Assembly: GCA_000442125.1 (NCBI GenBank)
Contig: KE546966.1
Span: forward strand, 892,969-956,968
Origin: Opeltia flavorubescens
Lineage: Eukaryota; Ascomycota; Lecanoromycetes; Teloschistales; Teloschistaceae
Direction of reading: 5' to 3'
DNA length: 64,000 bases
Positions 53,742 to 63,551 of this stretch are shown piece by piece (position 1 is the stretch's first letter; each line of letters opens with the position of its first letter). A program made the position numbers and the translations under genes. The notes beneath the pieces are model-generated. The model saw nothing but the letters and a program-made list of their open reading frames with translations. It ran no database searches and had not been told where the DNA came from.

Positions 53742-54317
53742 CTACATGACAACGCAGACACCAGCACAACACCTCTCCTTCTTCCTCGTTGCCTCCGCCA
53801 ACCTCTCCCGCCTCGCCTGCTCCGACAGTCTCGCCGTCTCTGCTCGAATCCTCTCCTGCCGCTCCCCCACCGTAAGCGGTCTATCTGGGCGTCTCGCAAA
53901 AGTCTCCACATCTAATTGTTTCCCGCTGGGAGAATGCACGATCAATCGTTTCGATGAAGAAGGTGCTGTGGCGGCGTCGCCATCGGAGGATTCTTGGCCA
54001 GGGGTGCCGTAGCGCTGCTCCGCGCGCATGAGGTCTTCCGGGTCGAGGAGTTCCGAGAGGCGGAGGAGTTTTCGAGGGGGAGCAGGGGCGGAGATTGAAG
54101 GGGAAGGGGAGAGTTTGTCAGGGGCGATGGAGTGGGTGGATTTTTTGCGGATGAGGGTGCGGATTGAGGCTGTGGAGGCGCGTTTTGATAGACTAGAGAG
54201 TTTGGTGGAGGTGGTGGAGGTGTTGTTGCTGTGAGTGAGGGGGCGGAGGGTGGAAGAGGAAGGGTTCTTATGGAGTTTGGCGGGGGCACGAAGGTTCGAA
54301 GTGGACATCCTATTCAT
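53742..54317 (-). CDS. Disordered protein with C-terminal CaaX box (CVVM)
   Basis: Single exon, up to 191 residues (start at 54317 or the second ATG at 54305). The N-terminal half is Ser/Thr/Pro-rich. The segment LLRLSELLDPEDLMRAEQRY and the block RLIVHSPSGKQLDVETFARR look conserved. The C-terminal ~35 residues form a basic helix (ERQERIRAETARLSEQARRE) running into KKERCCAGVCVVM at the stop codon. CVVM is a farnesylation-type CaaX box. Upstream Cys and basic residues resemble second membrane signals (palmitoylation, polybasic). So a lipid-anchored cytoplasmic protein is likely, although function is unknown. Confidence 0.72.
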   Translation of the reverse strand: MNRMSTSNLRAPAKLHKNPSSSTLRPLTHSNNTSTTSTKLSSLSKRASTASIRTLIRKKSTHSIAPDKLSPSPSISAPAPPRKLLRLSELLDPEDLMRAEQRYGTPGQESSDGDAATAPSSSKRLIVHSPSGKQLDVETFARRPDRPLTVGERQERIRAETARLSEQARRERLAEATRKKERCCAGVCVVM

Positions 54318-54810: not shown

Positions 54811-55553
54811 CTAGAACCGAGTAAAAGGTAGCCTGTATACTGTTAGCAACATACATTGAATACCCTGGGCTGTGAATTAGGCTTACCATTTGCCTCTCAA
54901 AGTAATAACAGCCCAATTATTCCCATCCTTGTCCGTCTCCTTTTCCACCTTCGTCGAGAAAGCGATAGCGCTCATGATGCCATCACCAAACTTTTCATTC
55001 AGAATAGCCTTGTAGGAATATCCGTAATTTTGCACGATCTCATACAATCTATAAATCAAAGGCTCCTTGGGCGGCATGTCCATCGTCTGCCCTCGGAACG
55101 GATAACCTGCCAATTGAGTTTCCAGCTTTGATTGGTCTATTCCAAGGACTCTAGCTAGGTTTTCGACATCCTCAGGTGTAGTCTGAGTCTGACCGTAGAA
55201 TATAGCTGCCACTGCGACTTCATTGCGCCCGATTTCTTTTGCGATTTGCTCAAAAGTGAGCTGCTTCTGCGCTTTGGCTTCGAACAGGGTATGCGCTTGT
55301 ACTGGGAGGCGATCTTTCAAAGTTGTCTGGAAGATCTTAGCTACAAACCGTGAATAATTGACAGGGCTATACATGCGTCAAGTGTTGCGATTCTAGTCGA
55401 AGCCAATCTGCTGGAGTAGTACACAACCGGCTGGTATTTCAAGGTGGAGGTCGGTCTACATGATGTTGTAAGCGTTGGTGGTGTGATTTTAGAATGTGAG
55501 AGGATAGGAGAGATACGGAAAGCCCCGTTTCGGATTGCTGATATATTTGCCAT
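54811..55553 (-). CDS. CYN1: Cyanate hydratase (cyanase) with N-terminal extension
   Basis: Cyanase converts cyanate and bicarbonate to ammonia and CO2. Three exons (55553-55373, 55340-54887, 54832-54811) give 218 residues. The last coding exon is only 22 bases and supplies LPFTRF, the family C-terminus. Core features: [40 protein letters not shown] (helix-turn-helix-like N-terminal domain), then [20 protein letters not shown] and GIMSAIAF, holding the catalytic Arg, Glu and Ser. The first ~60 residues ([35 protein letters not shown]) are basic, Ser/Thr-rich and nearly free of acids. That suggests a mitochondrial targeting sequence; bacterial cyanase is ~156 residues. Divergent from phospholipase D. 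Confidence 0.92.
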
Positions 55554-55962
55554 GATTTACTGTAAGCTGGAAAAGTGGACGTGAGAGCCCCAAAGATCAA
55601 ATCGAAGTGGAACGGGAGTGACGGAATGACGTCGCGGTTGCAGCTAATTTAGCGTACGTTATTCGATAGTTGAGCTACTACCTTAGACTAGCACCTATCC
55701 AACGGACACCCATAGGTAACCTTAGGACTTAGATTATCGTTTGATGTGAATCAGAATTCGACTTATGGAAGTTGATCTGCGCAGACGATTTTGACGAACG
55801 TCATCCAATAAGTAAGTAGTGAAAACCGGCATGATAAAGTCAGCCTATGAAACCCAGCAGAGTCAAACCGGATCTTTATTTCCTTTGGTTGTGAAACCAT
55901 TGAGGTTCTAGTAGCTCGCCGTGGTCTGGTTTTAGGTCGTGTCCGAAAGCCGTATCACCAAT
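55554..55962. promoter_or_regulatory. Divergent promoter region, cyanase and phospholipase D
   Basis: 409 bases between outward-facing starts, with a CRE-like TGACGTCG near 55626. No further site assigned. Confidence 0.45.
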
Positions 55963-58900
55963 ATGGCTGGGGAGTACAAGGAAGACCCGTTGGCTTACGG
56001 CGACTATCATGAAACGCCTGGACCTGCTAATGAGGAAGGTGAATACGGAGAAGGCGAGCGAGGTTTTATTGGCGATACCTATCGAAAGTTTCGAGGCCGG
56101 TACACCGGTCAAGCTTCTCCAGGTCAACCCCCGACCGGTGGTCCAGGGCAATCACCAAGTCTTGTCTCAGGCCTCTTCAGCACCCTTCATGGTGCAGTTC
56201 ACGGGATCGGATCCGAAGTCCGCCAGAGGGTATCAGGGAAGGATAGACCCAGCAGCCATACTCATTCGGGACCATATTGTGACTCAAGCATGCATGACAG
56301 CTCCCAAAATCGATTCGGCAGCTTTGCAGCTCAACGGACTGGCAACGACATCAAATGGTTTGTTGATGGTTGTGGGTATATGTGGGCAGTATCCAGAGCA
56401 TTGGAACAGGCAAGGGAGTCAATCTGGATTCTAGACTGGTGGCTGTCACCGGAGTTGTATTTGCGAAGACCTCCAACCAAGAACGAGCAATACCGGATAG
56501 ATCGTATGCTGCAAGCTGCTGCTCAGCGTGGAGTTAAAGTGAACATTATCGTCTACAAAGAGGTAACTCAGGCCTTGACCCGTAAGTTCTTGACCCCTAC
56601 AATACCTCGATATCTTCATTCTCTCCTACCTCGCCATACCGACAATTTCACCTCCGCGCTAAGTGCTCTCGGCCTTGCTGCTACTTTTGCATCGCTTGAG
56701 TATCTAGAGTCTGAGAACCAGCTGATGAGTCCGGTTGTCCCAGTTTGCTCAAGTCACACAAAGCATGCGCTGGAAAATCTACACCCTAACATCTCCGTTT
56801 TCCGACATCCAGACCATTTACCGGATGCGCAAACACTTCAGTCGTCCTTTATTTCGTCTCTTCAAAACATGTCCCTGTCTGCCAAAACTGCAGCTAGTCT
56901 CCCTTTAGACGCCTTGAAAGCTGTGTATGGTATGAATGAGGACGTCATTCTGTACTGGGCGCATCACGAGAAGCTATGTATAGTCGATGGAAAGACGGCA
57001 TTCATGGGTGGCCTTGATCTCTGCTATGGTCGATGGGACCTGAACCAGCATCCGATTGCCGATTGCCATCCCTCCAACATCAACGATACGGTTTTTCCCG
57101 GTCAGGAATACAATAATGCGCGAGTCTTGGATTTCCAGGATATTCCACATTGGCAAAACAACAAGCTCGACAGGACAAAGAATTCAAGAATGGGCTGGTC
57201 TGATATATCGGTCAGTCTGAGAGGCCCGGTTGTCGAGGATTTGAGGGCGCATTTCGTAGAAAGATGGAATTTCATCTACAATGAAAAATACGACGTACGA
57301 AAGGATGTGCGATATGCGAGACTGAATTTTAATCAAAACGAAACTGGCGCATACCAGGAACGGCCTCCATCGTCTGCAGGAACACAAGGTTATCAATCCT
57401 CGAATGCTTATTCACAACCCTACGCTCAAGCTCAAAACACTCCGCAACCATACCAAGCATATCAACCATCCCGACCGTACCAGCCAACCGCAAGCCCTTA
57501 CGGCCAGGGCAGTCAAGCATCAAGTCAATACTTTGCTCCACCGCCATCATCTCGTGGTGTGGACACTGGTGATGCTGAAACGGCATCACGAGGGTTTGGC
57601 TCATCTTACGGAGATGAGCGCCACGGTCACCACCATCAACCGCTCGAGGGAGGGCTAGACGAAATGGCAGGTGCTGTGCGAGGTCGATTGAATGACGGAG
57701 TCCAGCGTATGGAGAATAGATATGAACATCATAGACACTTGCACGGTGGACCGCAGGAAGCTGGAATTCCATGTCAGATTGTTCGAAGTTGCAGCAAGTG
57801 GAGTCATGGTGTCCCCATCGAGCATTCGATCCAGAATGCGTACATAGATATTATCCAGAGGAGTCAGTACTTCGTCTACATTGAAAACCAGTTCTTCATC
57901 ACGGCCACCTCTGATGATCAGAAGCCCGTCAAGAATAAGATTGGAGCGGCTATTGTTGATCGTATTCTCCGCGCTGCAAGAGCCGGCGAAAAATTCAAGG
58001 TCATCGTCGTCATTCCGGCTGTACCTGGTTTCGCTGGTGACCTGAAAGATGACGCAAGCTTGGGTACGCGGGCCATCATGGAGTTCCAATACGATTCCAT
58101 CAATCGAGGTGGACACAGTATCATGGAGAAAATCGGCAACGAAGGATTTGATCCCACTGAGTATATTCGGTTCTACAATTTACGCAATTATGACCGCATC
58201 AACACGAGTGGTGTAATGCGTGAAGCAGAGCAGCAATCTGGAATCAAATTTCAAGATGCCCAAGCCCAGTACAATGACGCTGTAGAACTTCCCGCAAGTT
58301 ACCCAACCCAGGGAGACGATGGGCAAGACAGAAGTTTCTCGATGGACAGGCAGATGTACAACGAATATCAACAAAGCACGCACGGCATACAACAGCAACA
58401 AGGTCTCGGCAGTGGCCGCTGGGACAGCGTTAGTGAATGCTATATGCTTGGGGGAACAGATATACGTAGTGTACCTTGGGAAAACGGCAATGTATCAGAA
58501 ATGGATGCTTTTGTTAGTGAGGAGCTCTACGTTCACTCAAAGGTAACGTTCTACTTCTTTTTAGCTGTAGGTCCTTCACTTACGAAAAGCAGGTGCTCAT
58601 CGCAGATGATCGAATTGTTATTTGCGGTTCAGCCAACCTAAACGACCGGTCGCAAAATGGGGACCATGACTCGGAGATTGCAATCATCGTCGAAGACCCT
58701 ACACCAATCGACTCGTACATGAATGGGAGGCCATGGCGAGCGACGAAGTTTGCAGCAACGCTCCGGAGACAGCTGTTCCGGAAGCACTTAGGCCTGTTGC
58801 AACCCCAAGACATGGGCCGACCAGATGCAAACTTTGAGCCGGTCGGTGTGCCAAACATGTACGATTTCGGATCCAAAGAAGACGAACTTGTGATAGACCC

Positions 58901-59279
58901 GCTGGCAGACAGTTTCCTGAACCTTTGGAATAGTCGGGCCCACCAAAACACGAATGCATTTGGGAAAATCTTCCATCCGGTGCCGCATGACGATGTAAGG
59001 ACGTGGAAAGATTACGACACTTTCTACGAATCTTTCTTTCACAAGGCGGATAAGGAAGCCGAGGGTAAAGAAGGGAAGAAGTTGCCGGCCAAGTATGAGT
59101 GGGGGCATGTCGTCGCCGAAAACTTTTCTCCTGGCCAACAAGGTGTTCGAGAAGTCAAGGAATTGCTTAGCACCATCCAAGGAACACTGGTTGAGATGCC
59201 TCTGCTTTTCCTTATCAAAGAAGACATTGCGAAGGAAGGAGTTGGTTTCAATGCCTTCACTGAAGAGGTCTACACTTAG
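55963..59279 (+). CDS. Phospholipase D, two HKD motifs, no PX/PH domains
   Basis: Hydrolyses phosphatidylcholine to phosphatidic acid. Exons 55963-56581, 56744-58542 and 58593-59279 give 1034 residues. Homologues read VTQALT directly into SSHTKHAL, so 56582-56743 (GTAAGT ... CCCAG, phase 1) is an intron although it has no stop and is a multiple of three. First catalytic motif: HHEKLCIVDGKTAFMGGLD. Second: HSK | VLIADDRIVICGSANLNDRS, interrupted by the second intron right after HSK. IENQFFITA and DVILYWAHHEK are also family blocks. A ~150-residue Gln/Tyr/Pro-rich insert (PYAQAQNTPQPYQAYQPSR) separates the halves. No PX or PH domain before the catalytic core, unlike Spo14. Start at MAGEYKEDP (55963). 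Confidence 0.93.
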
Positions 59280-60625
59280 ACTGAAGTCTGATTTTAATGA
59301 GTTGATGGGTTGACGTGCGATGAATGAGATTTCCAGGAAGAGTAAAATGTCTGATGATGATTGTCTATTGTATGATTAGTCATGACGGGAGTCCGGCAAA
59401 AAAGGCAGGTGCAAATAGGAAGAACAATACTAAGAGCTGGAATGTTCCCATTCAACACCACGATCAACGACTGACACGAGTCCGCGACATCATCCCCTTG
59501 GAACGAGGCATACTCATGAACGAAGAAACAATGACAGAGCAAGCCCATCACTTATTGCTATCAGCCACACAGAAATATTCTACATTGCATCAGCGAGCAT
59601 GTACTTACAAGCCCTAGATTAAATCATGCTACCCATTGGACTATTTCCTACACACGATGAATTTGTCTTTCTATGTCTGGTCCCATGCTCGAGAGATTCA
59701 TCGCAATTTCCCAGAAGTACAAAGCTCTGAGGCTATGAGCTTGCAACTTGCAAGATCGTCCAGAATTGCATTGTTGTGTTGCTCCAAAGATCCACTGTTG
59801 ATTCACACTCTTGCTTTCGGGATATGCACAACTTCCCTCTTTGCAGCTCGATAACATACTCTAGGCCTGACATTATCCGGATGTGCGATGAACAGCAATT
59901 TTGATTACCGATTATCCTTGCGTTTCTTACCCATCGTACCTGCTTATCCTGAGCTCTTCTAATCGGTCTAGTCTCTACATACGCAACGGTCCCGGATCAA
60001 ACATGGTGCCAGCCATACTACCAGTGACGAAAGCTTGCAAAAATGTTAAGGCAGTAGTCTCTTTCGTCTAAACTCACTTCGTCATCAATCCTCGCTTTCT
60101 TTCACTCCTATCCTTGCTCATTCGCTGTCGAGAACAATATCAAGACAAGAACAATATTAAGCACAGACAAAGAACTCACCACAACCTTCGACATCCAGAA
60201 CCACTCAGATCTCAGAATAGCACCACCTCCCTTCAATCACGTTACCACCTCGCCACATGACCGTCATTCATCCTCCACTGACGAGCCCCCTTCCATGAGA
60301 TAACGGCTTTCAATTGTTCTATGAACCATTTCGTTTCCCTTAGACCGCCACAAGATCACCCCTTTATCATCCTCCGTCCATAAATCCTCATCAGCAACCT
60401 ACTCCTTCAAAAACTTCCTCTTATCACCTCAGGTCAAAGCATTCAAAGGTTCAAATCATCTATCACACTGTAAGCTCATCCCTTTCACACACATCCATCA
60501 TCAAAATTTACTCCTTATACTTCGAATAACCATAATCAAACTTGATACTAATCCATCATACCCCTCTAGCTCTCACTCAAAGCTTCTTCGCTTCGAACAA
60601 AGTTCACTCAAAATCAAAAAGCACA
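59280..60625. promoter_or_regulatory. Upstream region of pheromone gene
   Basis: 1.35 kb with no convincing ORF. From ~60080 to the ATG it is C/A- and pyrimidine-rich, as in long leaders of highly expressed fungal genes. Two direct copies of GAACAATAT (60132-60140, 60149-60157) and an ACAAAG (60167-60172) lie 450-495 bases before the start codon. AACAAT and ACAAAG are core sites of HMG-box proteins such as the MAT1-2-1 mating-type factor. Binding is inference. Confidence 0.4.
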
Positions 60626-60874
60626 ATGTCTCCTATTCCCACCACCATCAACGCCGCTCCAACAGAGATCCCCGGCCCAGCCAACGAGCGCGGCAAGGCC
60701 TACCACTACTGCGTTGTCATGAAAAATGGGATTCCCGCTCCACCTCAAGTTGATCGTGGTATGTTACTTTCCCCTTTCCCCCTGATAAGTGATAGGTCAC
60801 GTGGCTTAATGGATGGCTAACGCAGTTCATGCTGTAACACAGGAGGGTCATACCACTACTGCGTCGTCATGTAA
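60626..60874 (+). CDS. a-factor-like lipopeptide mating pheromone precursor, two modules
   Basis: Exons 60626-60758 and 60843-60874 join in phase (G|GA) across an 84-base intron (GTATGT donor, CTAAC branch site at 60817, AACACAG acceptor), giving 54 residues. The C-terminus is GGSYHYCVVM at the stop codon: a CaaX box for farnesylation and methylation, as in Neurospora mfa-1 and Cryphonectria Mf2 precursors, which also end YCVVM. There is no signal peptide, consistent with Ste6-type export of a-class pheromones. Remarkably, exon 1 contains an internal copy: ERGKAYHYCVVMKNG. The first AG after the branch site (60825) is only five bases away, too close for normal use, so the CaaX frame is favoured. 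Without splicing the product would end in GLMDG with no terminal CaaX. Confidence 0.85.
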
Positions 60875-61480
60875 CGACATCCTCAACATGACGAGCAGTA
60901 TCCCTCCAAAGGGGCTATGGGTCGGTGAAGGCCCACCGTCGGATATCTAATCAATCCCATGTCTCCACTTCATCACTGCGACAAATATTTATTCAGCAAA
61001 GCAGGAGTTATTGTTACAGTCATTTATGGTTCTTGACATTCATTCGGACCTTTGAAGAGATCAACATATATTATGGGAGTTTTTAAAGGGGGGTTGTTCA
61101 GGTTTTTGATATTTGAAATTTGACATTTGCTGCTGGCGTTCTGTTGGCATTCTATGTTACCCCTTATGTTACACATCCACACTCACTAGAACAAATGCAC
61201 CATATGTATTCCTGAATCTTCCCCATGTCTCCTTTTTCCTCTTCATCGTGCGAAATCACAGCAGTGATATAGAGCATCTGGAATCTATGAGGCGAGCATT
61301 AATCAGATATTCAAGGGCAGATCATGTCCATACCCAATGAGATTATGCCTGGGTAAAGTACGAGTCCCTCATGCATTCCTGGAAAGTAGAATCGTCCATC
61401 TTCTCGAACCGCCAAGACCTCGGAGGCCTCACCGTTGATATCGAGGTTAGATCCATCGCCAATCAATGTCGCCATCAAGT
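60875..61480. other. Intergenic between convergent genes
   Basis: 3' region of the pheromone gene (probably a long untranslated region) and 3' end of the Yap-binding protein gene. No other gene recognised. Confidence 0.45.
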
Positions 61481-63551
61481 CTAAAGAGATTGGTCTCCCC
61501 TTTCCTCCTTCTCCTTCTCCTCCTGATGCCTATCATAATACGGAACAAGCTTCTCCCGACACATCCCCAACAACCCCTCCATCAAATTCATTCCCGCCAC
61601 CTCCTCCCCTGCATTCACTTCCCTAAACTTCCGAATTCGCTCTTCCAGATCCGTGAGCCAATCCTTTTCAGACTGGTATTCTAGTCGACTATCAATGATA
61701 TCCACGTATGGATATTCACCTCGCGCACCCAGAGACAGTAGTAGGTAATAGAGATTCAATACTGCTAGGAAATAATTCTGATGCGCCAGAAACGCGTCAT
61801 CGTTCATATCTGTTGGACGGAGGAAGATGTAACGGGCTAGTGTGGGCATGCAATTGGCCTTTCCGAAAGGTGATGTGGCTTCGTTCTGGGTATTGGTCAC
61901 GGTCTCCGCTCGAGGAGCCGGATCCGATGAGATGGGATGTGTCAACTTGCTAGCATGGAGAATCTCATCCTTGAGCCAACCTATTGCGCTAGCTTTCAGG
62001 TTCTCATACGGGCAGTGCTCGAGGTTGTCTTTGATGATTGAGAAGCGTCGATCATCGTTTTGATGAGCGTGGAAGGTGCGAGTTGCTAGTATATGGGCGT
62101 TATATCGCAGGCTTGCGAGTGGTGTGTTCGCGGAGAGAAGTGAGAGGTTTTGGAGGTGGGAATTGAATGACTCGTCATCTGGCAATGATTTTTCGAAGCC
62201 CAGGAGCTCAGAGACGTAAGATCCTAGGAAGAGGAGGGAGTCGATTAGGGCAAGAGATTCAATGTTGAGATTACCTGAGAGTTGGTCGGGTGTCAAGGAA
62301 CGTGTTAGTATGGTCGAGTAGATTGGGAAACTGGAGAACTGCGGGATAGTAGATGGGGCTTGAAAGAAAACGGTGGATGCTATGTTCGCACAGAGCAAGT
62401 AAAGGCAGCCAGGTCGAGAAAGAGGAACCTCGGATGCTGAGGAAGGGAGGTCGTCTGGATCTTCGACATTGGAATCTTCAGGCTCTACGAGGGTCTTGAT
62501 AAGTTCTTCTGCTACAAGATTGAGATCTCTTGCAAGCGCCTGCCTAATTTAAGCATAACTCATACCTTTATGGAAGTGTTTAACTTACCAGCATTTGTCC
62601 CAAGATAGAATCTTGATGATGTAGCTTCTCGTCCTTCTCAAATGCCTCACACATTGAGTCCTGCCCAGGGACATTCTTCTCCGGATGTGATTTCTGTCGC
62701 AGTCGGGTTGACCAGCACATAGCTACTATGTCGTCCTCCGCTGGGAGAGAGGATAAGTATCCTTCCACAACAAATGTTAAGAATGATTGGATCAGCCTCT
62801 GCTGCAGGTCATTCTCTTCTGGTGCGGTGGACTCTTCGCTGGCTTCAGGGTCTGGTGCGGTATCAGGGTTCCCTCGAGGCTGGGTGGGTACCTGCATGCT
62901 ACTTTTCCGAGGTGGCAGCTTCGGTCTCCTAGAGCCGGTAAAGGTCTTGATGAAGTCCAACACGGCACCCGCGGCCTCATCATGCGCCAATAAGGATGCA
63001 TAAGCAGAGAGAAGGGGCTGCAGAGAAGTGGAGAGAAAACGACTTGGATGCTTGGTTTTGATGCGAGGATGGAGAACGGCAAGCATTTCGACCAATACAC
63101 AGAATCGAGATATCTTCGATGGTGGCTCCCGAGGCTGGTCTTTAGGTATTGGGCGCACCGCTGAAGCGTCATGATCAGGGGAAGAAGTTACGCCATTAGA
63201 GGGTGCAAGCTGCTCAGGTTCCGACGATTTTTCTTCATCTTCTTCACTAGCATCATCAACTCTATCCTCAACCGCAAGGGATTCTAAGAGCTCTGTCACT
63301 TTCAAAACAACTTCGCGAGGATTCCCCAGGCGAGCGACGTCTTGAAGACATGTTCGAGATTCAGGAAGCAATGGGAGAAGCAGGTGGACAAGATCCCAAC
63401 CCACGTTAGCAGTAAATGCTGTATCTTGCAGAAGGCCGTGGAGCACAGGAAGCTGCTCGACCGTCAAGTTATATTCGAGGATTGTCAGATAGGACAGATA
63501 ATCGACCGCAGGAGGTAAAGCTTTAAGCAGTGGATTCTCAGTAGTTTCCAT
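61481..63551 (-). CDS. Yap-binding protein family (DUF1760, YBP1-like)
   Basis: Exons 63551-62589 and 62539-61481 join in phase 0 (ATG CTG | GCG CTT; donor GTAAGT, acceptor GGCAG), giving 673 residues. Ybp1 helps yeast Yap1 become activated by peroxide and also acts at kinetochores. The N-terminus (NPLLKALPPAVDYLSYLTIL, NVGWDLVHLLLPLLPESRTC, VARLGNPREVVLKVTELLES) is the family's helical repeat start. FCVLVEMLAVLHPRIKTKHP, then RFLSTSLQPLLSAY, and after the intron ALARDLNLVAEELIKTL, are also typical. An acidic linker (VDDASEEDEEKSSEPEQ) separates the parts. The C-terminus is charged (HQEEKEKEERGDQ). An AG five bases upstream of the chosen acceptor would break the frame. Confidence 0.85.

Follow-up and report, generated by a model that had tools for sequence, protein, structure and literature searches.

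We report here that a small gene in the genome of Opeltia flavorubescens, a lichen fungus of the Teloschistaceae, very probably encodes a two-module precursor of an a-factor, that is, of a lipopeptide mating pheromone, which would be processed along the route proposed below. The gene occupies positions 60626-60874 of the window, by which we mean the whole stretch of 64,000 nucleotides analysed (contig C2, 892969-956968, of a 34.4 Mb assembly in 23 contigs), and its spliced product of 54 residues, MSPIPTTINAAPTEIPGPANERGKAYHYCVVMKNGIPAPPQVDRGGSYHYCVVM (the translation of exons 1 and 2), carries the heptad YHYCVVM twice, once internally and once at its C-terminus. The letters of the gene, its repeat, the uniqueness of that repeat, the neighbourhood and the receptor gene elsewhere in the genome can all be read directly. 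The features that it shares with a-type precursors are its length, a CVVM end within a terminal YHYCVVM, the lack of a hydrophobic leader (the top mean hydropathy over 12 residues is 0.40 within the first 30 residues), an STE3 gene in the same genome and a cyanate lyase gene nearby. Its first 18 residues include 3 Thr, 1 Ser and 5 Pro, which makes the start S/T/P-rich more than S/T-rich. A preliminary description had proposed a two-module lipopeptide precursor of a-type whose heptads are separated by an intron, and this proposal is supported by the cyanate lyase, the open STE3 frame and the unique motif. The weakest part of the a-factor reading is the activity of the internal unit.

Module 1 reads NER-GKA-YHYCVVM, with its heptad at 60701-60721, and module 2 reads VDR-GGS-YHYCVVM, with its heptad at 60851-60871. 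When the two are aligned in frame (NERGKAYHYCVVM against VDRGGSYHYCVVM), a repeat unit of 12 residues emerges, [E/D]RG[K/G][A/S]YHYCVVM, with the intron lying inside the second unit. Hence the earlier view of a duplicated module holds for two YHYCVVM heptads split by an intron but not for its extent: duplication of the 32-base exon 2 alone is rejected, since the repeat begins already in exon 1. The heptads agree in 20 of their 21 bases and the 18 bases preceding them in only 8, with the acid-Arg-Gly stretch still kept in the protein, a pattern of conservation that looks as if selection acted on both copies, although gene conversion of the core would resemble it. Searching all 34.4 Mb with a degenerate 21-base pattern for YHYCVVM gave two matches on the forward and none on the reverse strand, both within this gene, where chance would lead one to expect about 0.004 (a hand estimate assuming equal base frequencies); the reversed pattern, run as a control over the whole assembly, matched nowhere. 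A looser pattern for the C-terminus (Y-C-[VIMTA]-[VIM]-M-stop) likewise had a single genome-wide match, the end of this gene. As the pattern matches nowhere else in the assembly, we consider a chance repeat excluded.

The gene model consists of two exons on the forward strand. Exon 1 (60626-60758, 133 nt) starts with the ATG at 60626, encodes residues 1-44 plus one base and holds module 1 followed by Lys; exon 2 (60843-60874, 32 nt) supplies the end of module 2 and the TAA stop at 60872-60874. Between them lies a predicted intron of 84 nt (60759-60842) with a GTATGT donor, a branch-like CTAAC at 60817-60821 and a CAG acceptor, assigned on the basis of consensus. The coordinates and the 60758/60843 junction given in the preliminary description agree with the letters upon retranslation, the junction again by consensus. 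Two introns of the STE3 gene in the same genome, fixed by a database protein of 483 residues, measure 49 and 58 nt and have GTAAGT donors, and compared with these the GTATGT...CAG intron is of an ordinary kind, though longer. Of 69 GT-AG pairs combined by script, nine yield a CaaX end, each finishing SYHYCVVM, and among their donors GTATGT occurs only at 60759. Pairing this donor with an acceptor at 60845 in place of 60842 removes just one Gly. Because the intron contains an in-frame stop, unspliced mRNA lacks the terminal CaaX: the unspliced frame has 64 residues and no CaaX, and is identical to the sole database protein found. An AG at 60825, about 5 bases past the branch-like A, leads to a product of 85 residues, again without CaaX. 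Since neither the absence of splicing nor the acceptor at 60825 provides a CaaX, a prenylatable precursor would depend on the splice as proposed or on one close to it. We note that the acceptors at 60825 and 60842 are 17 bases apart and would compete, which may amount to an on/off switch for pheromone production. By inspection, a further intron of 100 nt is possible in the 5' untranslated region (60470-60569, forward strand, GTAAGC...ACTAAT...CTCTAG), and an Rfam scan of 59000-62000 gave no match. C-ending codons make up a fraction of 0.51 of the spliced coding sequence; eight reference open reading frames (ORFs) of the window average 0.27, and only 3 of 1114 overlapping 54-codon reference windows reach as high a value, so that the codon bias of the gene resembles that seen in a well-expressed gene.

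The neighbourhood adds to the evidence. A cyanate lyase gene, whose ORF part lies at 54883-55374 on the reverse strand (PF02560, E 1.9e-30), is the only such match in the genome, and its near end lies 5,252 bases from the pheromone ATG. In between is a gene of phospholipase D-like (PLD-like) type on the forward strand (55939-59279, in ORF pieces 55939-58641 and 58593-59279; PF00614, PF13091), and the one other ORF of at least 150 residues in this interval, with 153 residues, runs antisense to it. The candidate had been chosen by its motif before the cyanate lyase neighbour came to light; by a hand estimate (2 x 5.25 kb against 34.4 Mb), a site placed at random would have odds of about 3 in 10,000 of lying this near. 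An a-factor gene near cyanate lyase is on record for N. crassa, M. grisea and G. zeae; Chaetomium shares this type of locus, Podospora has a slightly altered one, and EBP2 and a MYND protein are also encoded nearby (PMC3068285). Downstream of our gene, a member of the YAP/Alf4/glomulin family occupies 61481-63551 on the reverse strand in two ORF pieces (PF08568, E 1.5e-23 and 4.2e-69). Directly 3' of the cyanate lyase gene lies an ORF of 191 residues (53742-54317, reverse strand) that ends CCAGVCVVM; all 12 of its listed relatives end CCx[VM]M, which looks like a signal for dual lipidation, and 11 of them come from Fulgogasparrea, Wetmoreana, Xanthoria and like genera.

Elsewhere in the genome, sequence matches point to the genes that one would expect to accompany an a-factor. 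STE3 is found at C12:1109170-1110067 (PF02076, E 6e-56 and 1.2e-28); its reading frame is open across two introns and matches the database protein of 483 residues at 100%. With a query of 358 residues, STE3 returned 201 relatives at E <=0.001, the 120 best of which are used in what follows. Among the matches listed, one is identical, and the nearest from named sources are those of Gyalolechia sp. 2 TL-2023 (86%), Loekoesia (77%) and cf. Caloplaca (75%). By taxonomy look-up, Gyalolechia, Loekoesia and Fulgogasparrea belong to the Teloschistaceae within the Lecanoromycetes, and we take the remaining genera among the relatives (e.g. Wetmoreana, Xanthoria and cf. Caloplaca) to do so as well. Judged by the relatives of STE3 and of the 191-residue protein, the fungus is most likely a lichen mycobiont of the Teloschistaceae with Gyalolechia as its closest named relative; a search for 5.8S rRNA with RF00002 gave no match. 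Nineteen consecutive STE3 matches (P0003-P0021) stem from genera thus assigned, so that the corresponding a-factor intervals are probably contained in public assemblies. STE2 resides on contig C3 and a gene of the ICMT/Ste14 type on C8. At the mating-type (MAT) locus, a MAT1-1 alpha-box (C10:884015-884398) lies between an SLA2-like gene with ANTH and I/LWEQ domains and an APN2-like nuclease gene, both names being our reading of their domains. Neither an HMG-box nor a MAT1-2 gene was seen at this locus; the 7 HMG matches of the genome fall on C2, C7, C11, C13 and C16. An ORF of 306 residues between the alpha-box and APN2-like genes (L014 7602-8522, reverse strand), which has no Pfam match, is a possible extra MAT1-1 gene. 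We also observed an alpha-factor-like precursor on C7 at about 1168 kb (L013 2123-2875, reverse strand) with the units ICNLPGQPC, WCYRPGQQC, FCNSDGQAC and WCLRPGQTC, each with KR shortly after; this precursor is without Pfam match, too.

How two pheromones might arise from a single precursor may be envisaged as follows. Farnesylation, removal of the last three residues (here VVM) and methylation of the Cys by CaaX enzymes are established for a-factors. In the present case, removal of the 84-nt intron, as predicted from splice consensus, would bring the second CaaX in frame, whereupon the Cys of the terminal CVVM would be farnesylated, VVM cleaved off and the Cys methylated by the ordinary CaaX enzymes. 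A protease would then cut near the acid-Arg pairs - ER before GKAYHYC and DR before GGSYHYC - and leave a short farnesylated peptide ending YHYC; that an acid-Arg pair serves as the cut site is plausible. Least certain is the release of the internal unit. As this is followed by Lys, a cut there with the Lys trimmed off would leave a true CaaX and, once this had been processed, a second and nearly identical pheromone. For precursors of the h-type and for rhodotorucine-like ones, others have suggested a similar release. Finally, the product would be exported without a signal peptide and read by the STE3 of the mating partner, so that a single transcript may deliver the signal in as many as two copies. 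Both export without a signal peptide and reading by STE3 are established for the a-factor family, and the STE3 found here is the putative receptor for the YHYC peptide.

Several points weigh against this reading, and some of them concern the gene itself. We infer the 60758/60843 junction solely from splice consensus. Frame 0 has a weak coding score of 0.106 bits per codon, which is still above frame 1 (-0.033) and frame 2 (-0.166), and exon 2 taken alone scores -0.120 over its 10 codons. No TGAAACA element was found in the 1.3 kb upstream. Kex2 sites (KR, RR or KK) are absent from all 54 residues, where the acid-Arg pairs ER and DR are present, and the studies of HPP1 and Huntiella considered here leave the release of internal units unexplained. 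The Gly-Tyr motif near the C-terminus is missing as well, HYCVVM being preceded by SY and AY; it occurs in 87 Leotiomycete genes, the gene itself having been found in at least 111 species (PMC10569646). We do not treat Gly-Tyr as defining because the M. grisea precursor shown in PMC3068285 does without it, too. Likeness to that precursor beyond the CaaX end is not significant, given that 388 of 5000 interior shuffles score as high.

Others concern the surroundings and the lack of relatives. Cyanate lyase is encoded on the opposite strand with the PLD-like gene intervening; EBP2, while on the same contig, is about 224 kb away from the pheromone gene, and Pfam revealed no MYND protein in 29 of the 33 window ORFs of at least 150 residues (four overlapping or antisense ORFs were omitted). 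With EBP2 distant and no MYND protein in the scanned ORFs, synteny with the Sordariomycetes is only partial. The protein database search returned a single match out of one candidate, the same ORF in unspliced form and without a Pfam domain, and the database is rich in Teloschistaceae proteins, yet no copy from a sister species matched. The gene may diverge fast or be absent in other species. Such genes commonly go unannotated, as has been said of the Leotiomycete gene (PMC10569646). Apart from the gene itself, a paralogue search within the genome returned two matches, both weak (E 0.03 and 0.11). A back-translated search gave 254 bacterial or archaeal stretches with one tblastn match, of residues 5-44 to the bacterium Klugiella (43%, E 6e-6), which we take as chance. 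In viral contigs, the YHYCVVM DNA pattern matched twice, in two near-identical contigs and apparently outside a long open frame, and a back-translated search gave 15 stretches and no relative.

Among the alternatives to the reading as a two-module precursor, the one we regard as possible, though clearly less probable, is that only the C-terminal module becomes pheromone and that the internal YHYCVVM is a spacer or the relic of an older terminus, which would have arisen when the terminal segment was copied in tandem and the old stop turned to sense. As this alternative also assumes an a-factor, the weight we assign to it overlaps with that of the a-factor identity. It gains from the established requirement of protein farnesyltransferase for a CaaX at the extreme C-terminus, and from the codons behind the two modules, AAA after the internal and TAA after the terminal one, which are a single base apart. 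Also, HPP1 function in Trichoderma did not need the Kex2 sites (PMC3068285). A dead copy, however, should decay alike along its length, while the internal heptad keeps every residue and 20 of 21 bases next to a flank that has drifted to 8 of 18 and still keeps acid-Arg-Gly.

Unlikely, to our minds, is a small prenylated protein other than a pheromone that is anchored in the membrane by its terminal CaaX. Non-pheromone proteins with CaaX ends do exist, one being the 53742-54317 protein just 6 kb off, and expression of the Leotiomycete candidate does not follow mating type; its authors doubt a role in mating (PMC10569646). Against an anchor speak the two aromatic-Cys modules, the nearby cyanate lyase, the 54 residues with their S/T/P-rich start, the single copy and STE3, all of which suit a pheromone better. 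It is very improbable that the a-factor is really the 53742-54317 protein and that the YHYCVVM gene has some other role. The Sordariomycete a-factor has been described downstream of cyanate lyase (PMC3068285), and this neighbour ends CVVM in a like place. Alignment of its relatives led us to drop it, however, since at 191 residues, and with 12 listed relatives of 198-262 residues that are 50-63% identical, it is a long, conserved and lipidated-looking protein rather than a short precursor. Hardly credible, lastly, is a chance ORF with a chance repeat: no relative is annotated and the lone database match has no Pfam domain, but the two identical heptads occur nowhere else in the genome and are joined by one frame-compatible model near cyanate lyase, which is not what chance would be expected to produce.

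Returning to the a-factor reading, its two-module architecture is not new because there are multi-unit precedents in HPP1, Fusarium, Huntiella, Ceratocystidaceae and rhodotorucine. What is new, as far as searched, is a probable a-factor from a Lecanoromycete, a two-unit form of CaaX type and a predicted intron that has to be spliced out for the terminal CaaX to appear. In the portions of the open literature covered, we did not find an a-factor described for Lecanoromycetes or lichen fungi; texts on Endocarpon, Cladonia, Letharia and Lobaria and a survey of Lecanoromycete MAT loci, searched by term, do not describe an a-factor gene in the passages thus reached, and a literature search by peptide letters met only YCVIM in the text covered. 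For Endocarpon, the loss of an alpha-factor-like precursor and of its receptor is reported. Before the Leotiomycete candidate, no a-factor gene was available from filamentous ascomycetes outside the Sordariomycetes, as stated by Wilson and others (PMC10569646).

The candidate near cyanate lyase would fill this gap for the lichen fungi and offers synthetic peptides to try. Mating of lichen fungi is hard to achieve in the laboratory. The lichen-fungus setting is of more interest than the two modules as such. A further case of an internal CaaX unit, here with an acid-Arg pair before each unit and a canonical CVVM, makes the question of how such units are freed and prenylated testable in yeast. 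If true, the cyanate lyase link may also be used as a search key for missing a-factors, e.g. in Eurotiomycetes and Dothideomycetes. Tiny spliced pheromone genes are easily missed. Taken jointly, the claims that the lichen-forming fungi (Lecanoromycetes) here yield their first a-factor gene, that the cyanate lyase-linked locus is older than the split between Sordariomycetes and Lecanoromycetes, that the two-unit precursor is cut at acid-Arg pairs and that splicing or the choice of acceptor (60842 vs 60825) decides on prenylation are to us evenly poised between right and wrong.

Among known systems, the putative a-factor of Leotiomycetes (BCIN_13g03330 family) resembles our gene in being a small CaaX/CpaX protein with an S/T-rich start from outside the Sordariomycetes. 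It differs in that it mostly ends CTVM and has 45-64 residues; internal modules are unmentioned in the sections covered, its role is doubted by the authors, and microsynteny searches for it yielded nothing usable (PMC10569646). The rhodotorucine A precursor of a basidiomycete yeast, which we liken by its description in PMC3068285, has tandem units with CaaX-like spacers and gives several peptides, albeit in another phylum. Comparison with the h-type pheromone of Trichoderma, suggested in the preliminary description, is apt in light of the same paper, as HPP1 of Trichoderma and some Fusarium species also combines internal copies of a CaaX motif with a C-terminal one. This comparison is too narrow, though, as multi-module a-factors also occur in Fusarium, Huntiella and other Ceratocystidaceae (PMC10182648 and PMC13037118). 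Membership in the h-type is rejected: by definition, h-type precursors have three [LI]GC[ST]VM-like copies of CpaX form, with Kex2 sites in T. reesei HPP1, whereas our gene has two YHYCVVM copies of CaaX form and no KR, RR or KK. In the multi-unit a-factors known from Huntiella and further members of the Ceratocystidaceae, CaaX or CpaX stands behind each unit, as CVVM does behind both units here; in Huntiella the units are of 12 residues, too, and the peptide starts with Arg (PMC10182648 and PMC13037118). Unlike our gene, the Huntiella genes are of CpaX type and without introns, and in the Ceratocystidaceae there are often several gene copies, with laccase-1 downstream in almost all. The Sordariomycete a-type (N. 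crassa mfa-1, M. grisea, C. parasitica, F. graminearum ppg2) is likewise short, with a CaaX end and cyanate lyase near, and its M. grisea member opens MSP and closes IHYCVIM (PMC3068285). Where the canonical Sordariomycete precursor has one module, the Opeltia gene has two, with an intron between the heptads, and it comes from a different class, the Lecanoromycetes.
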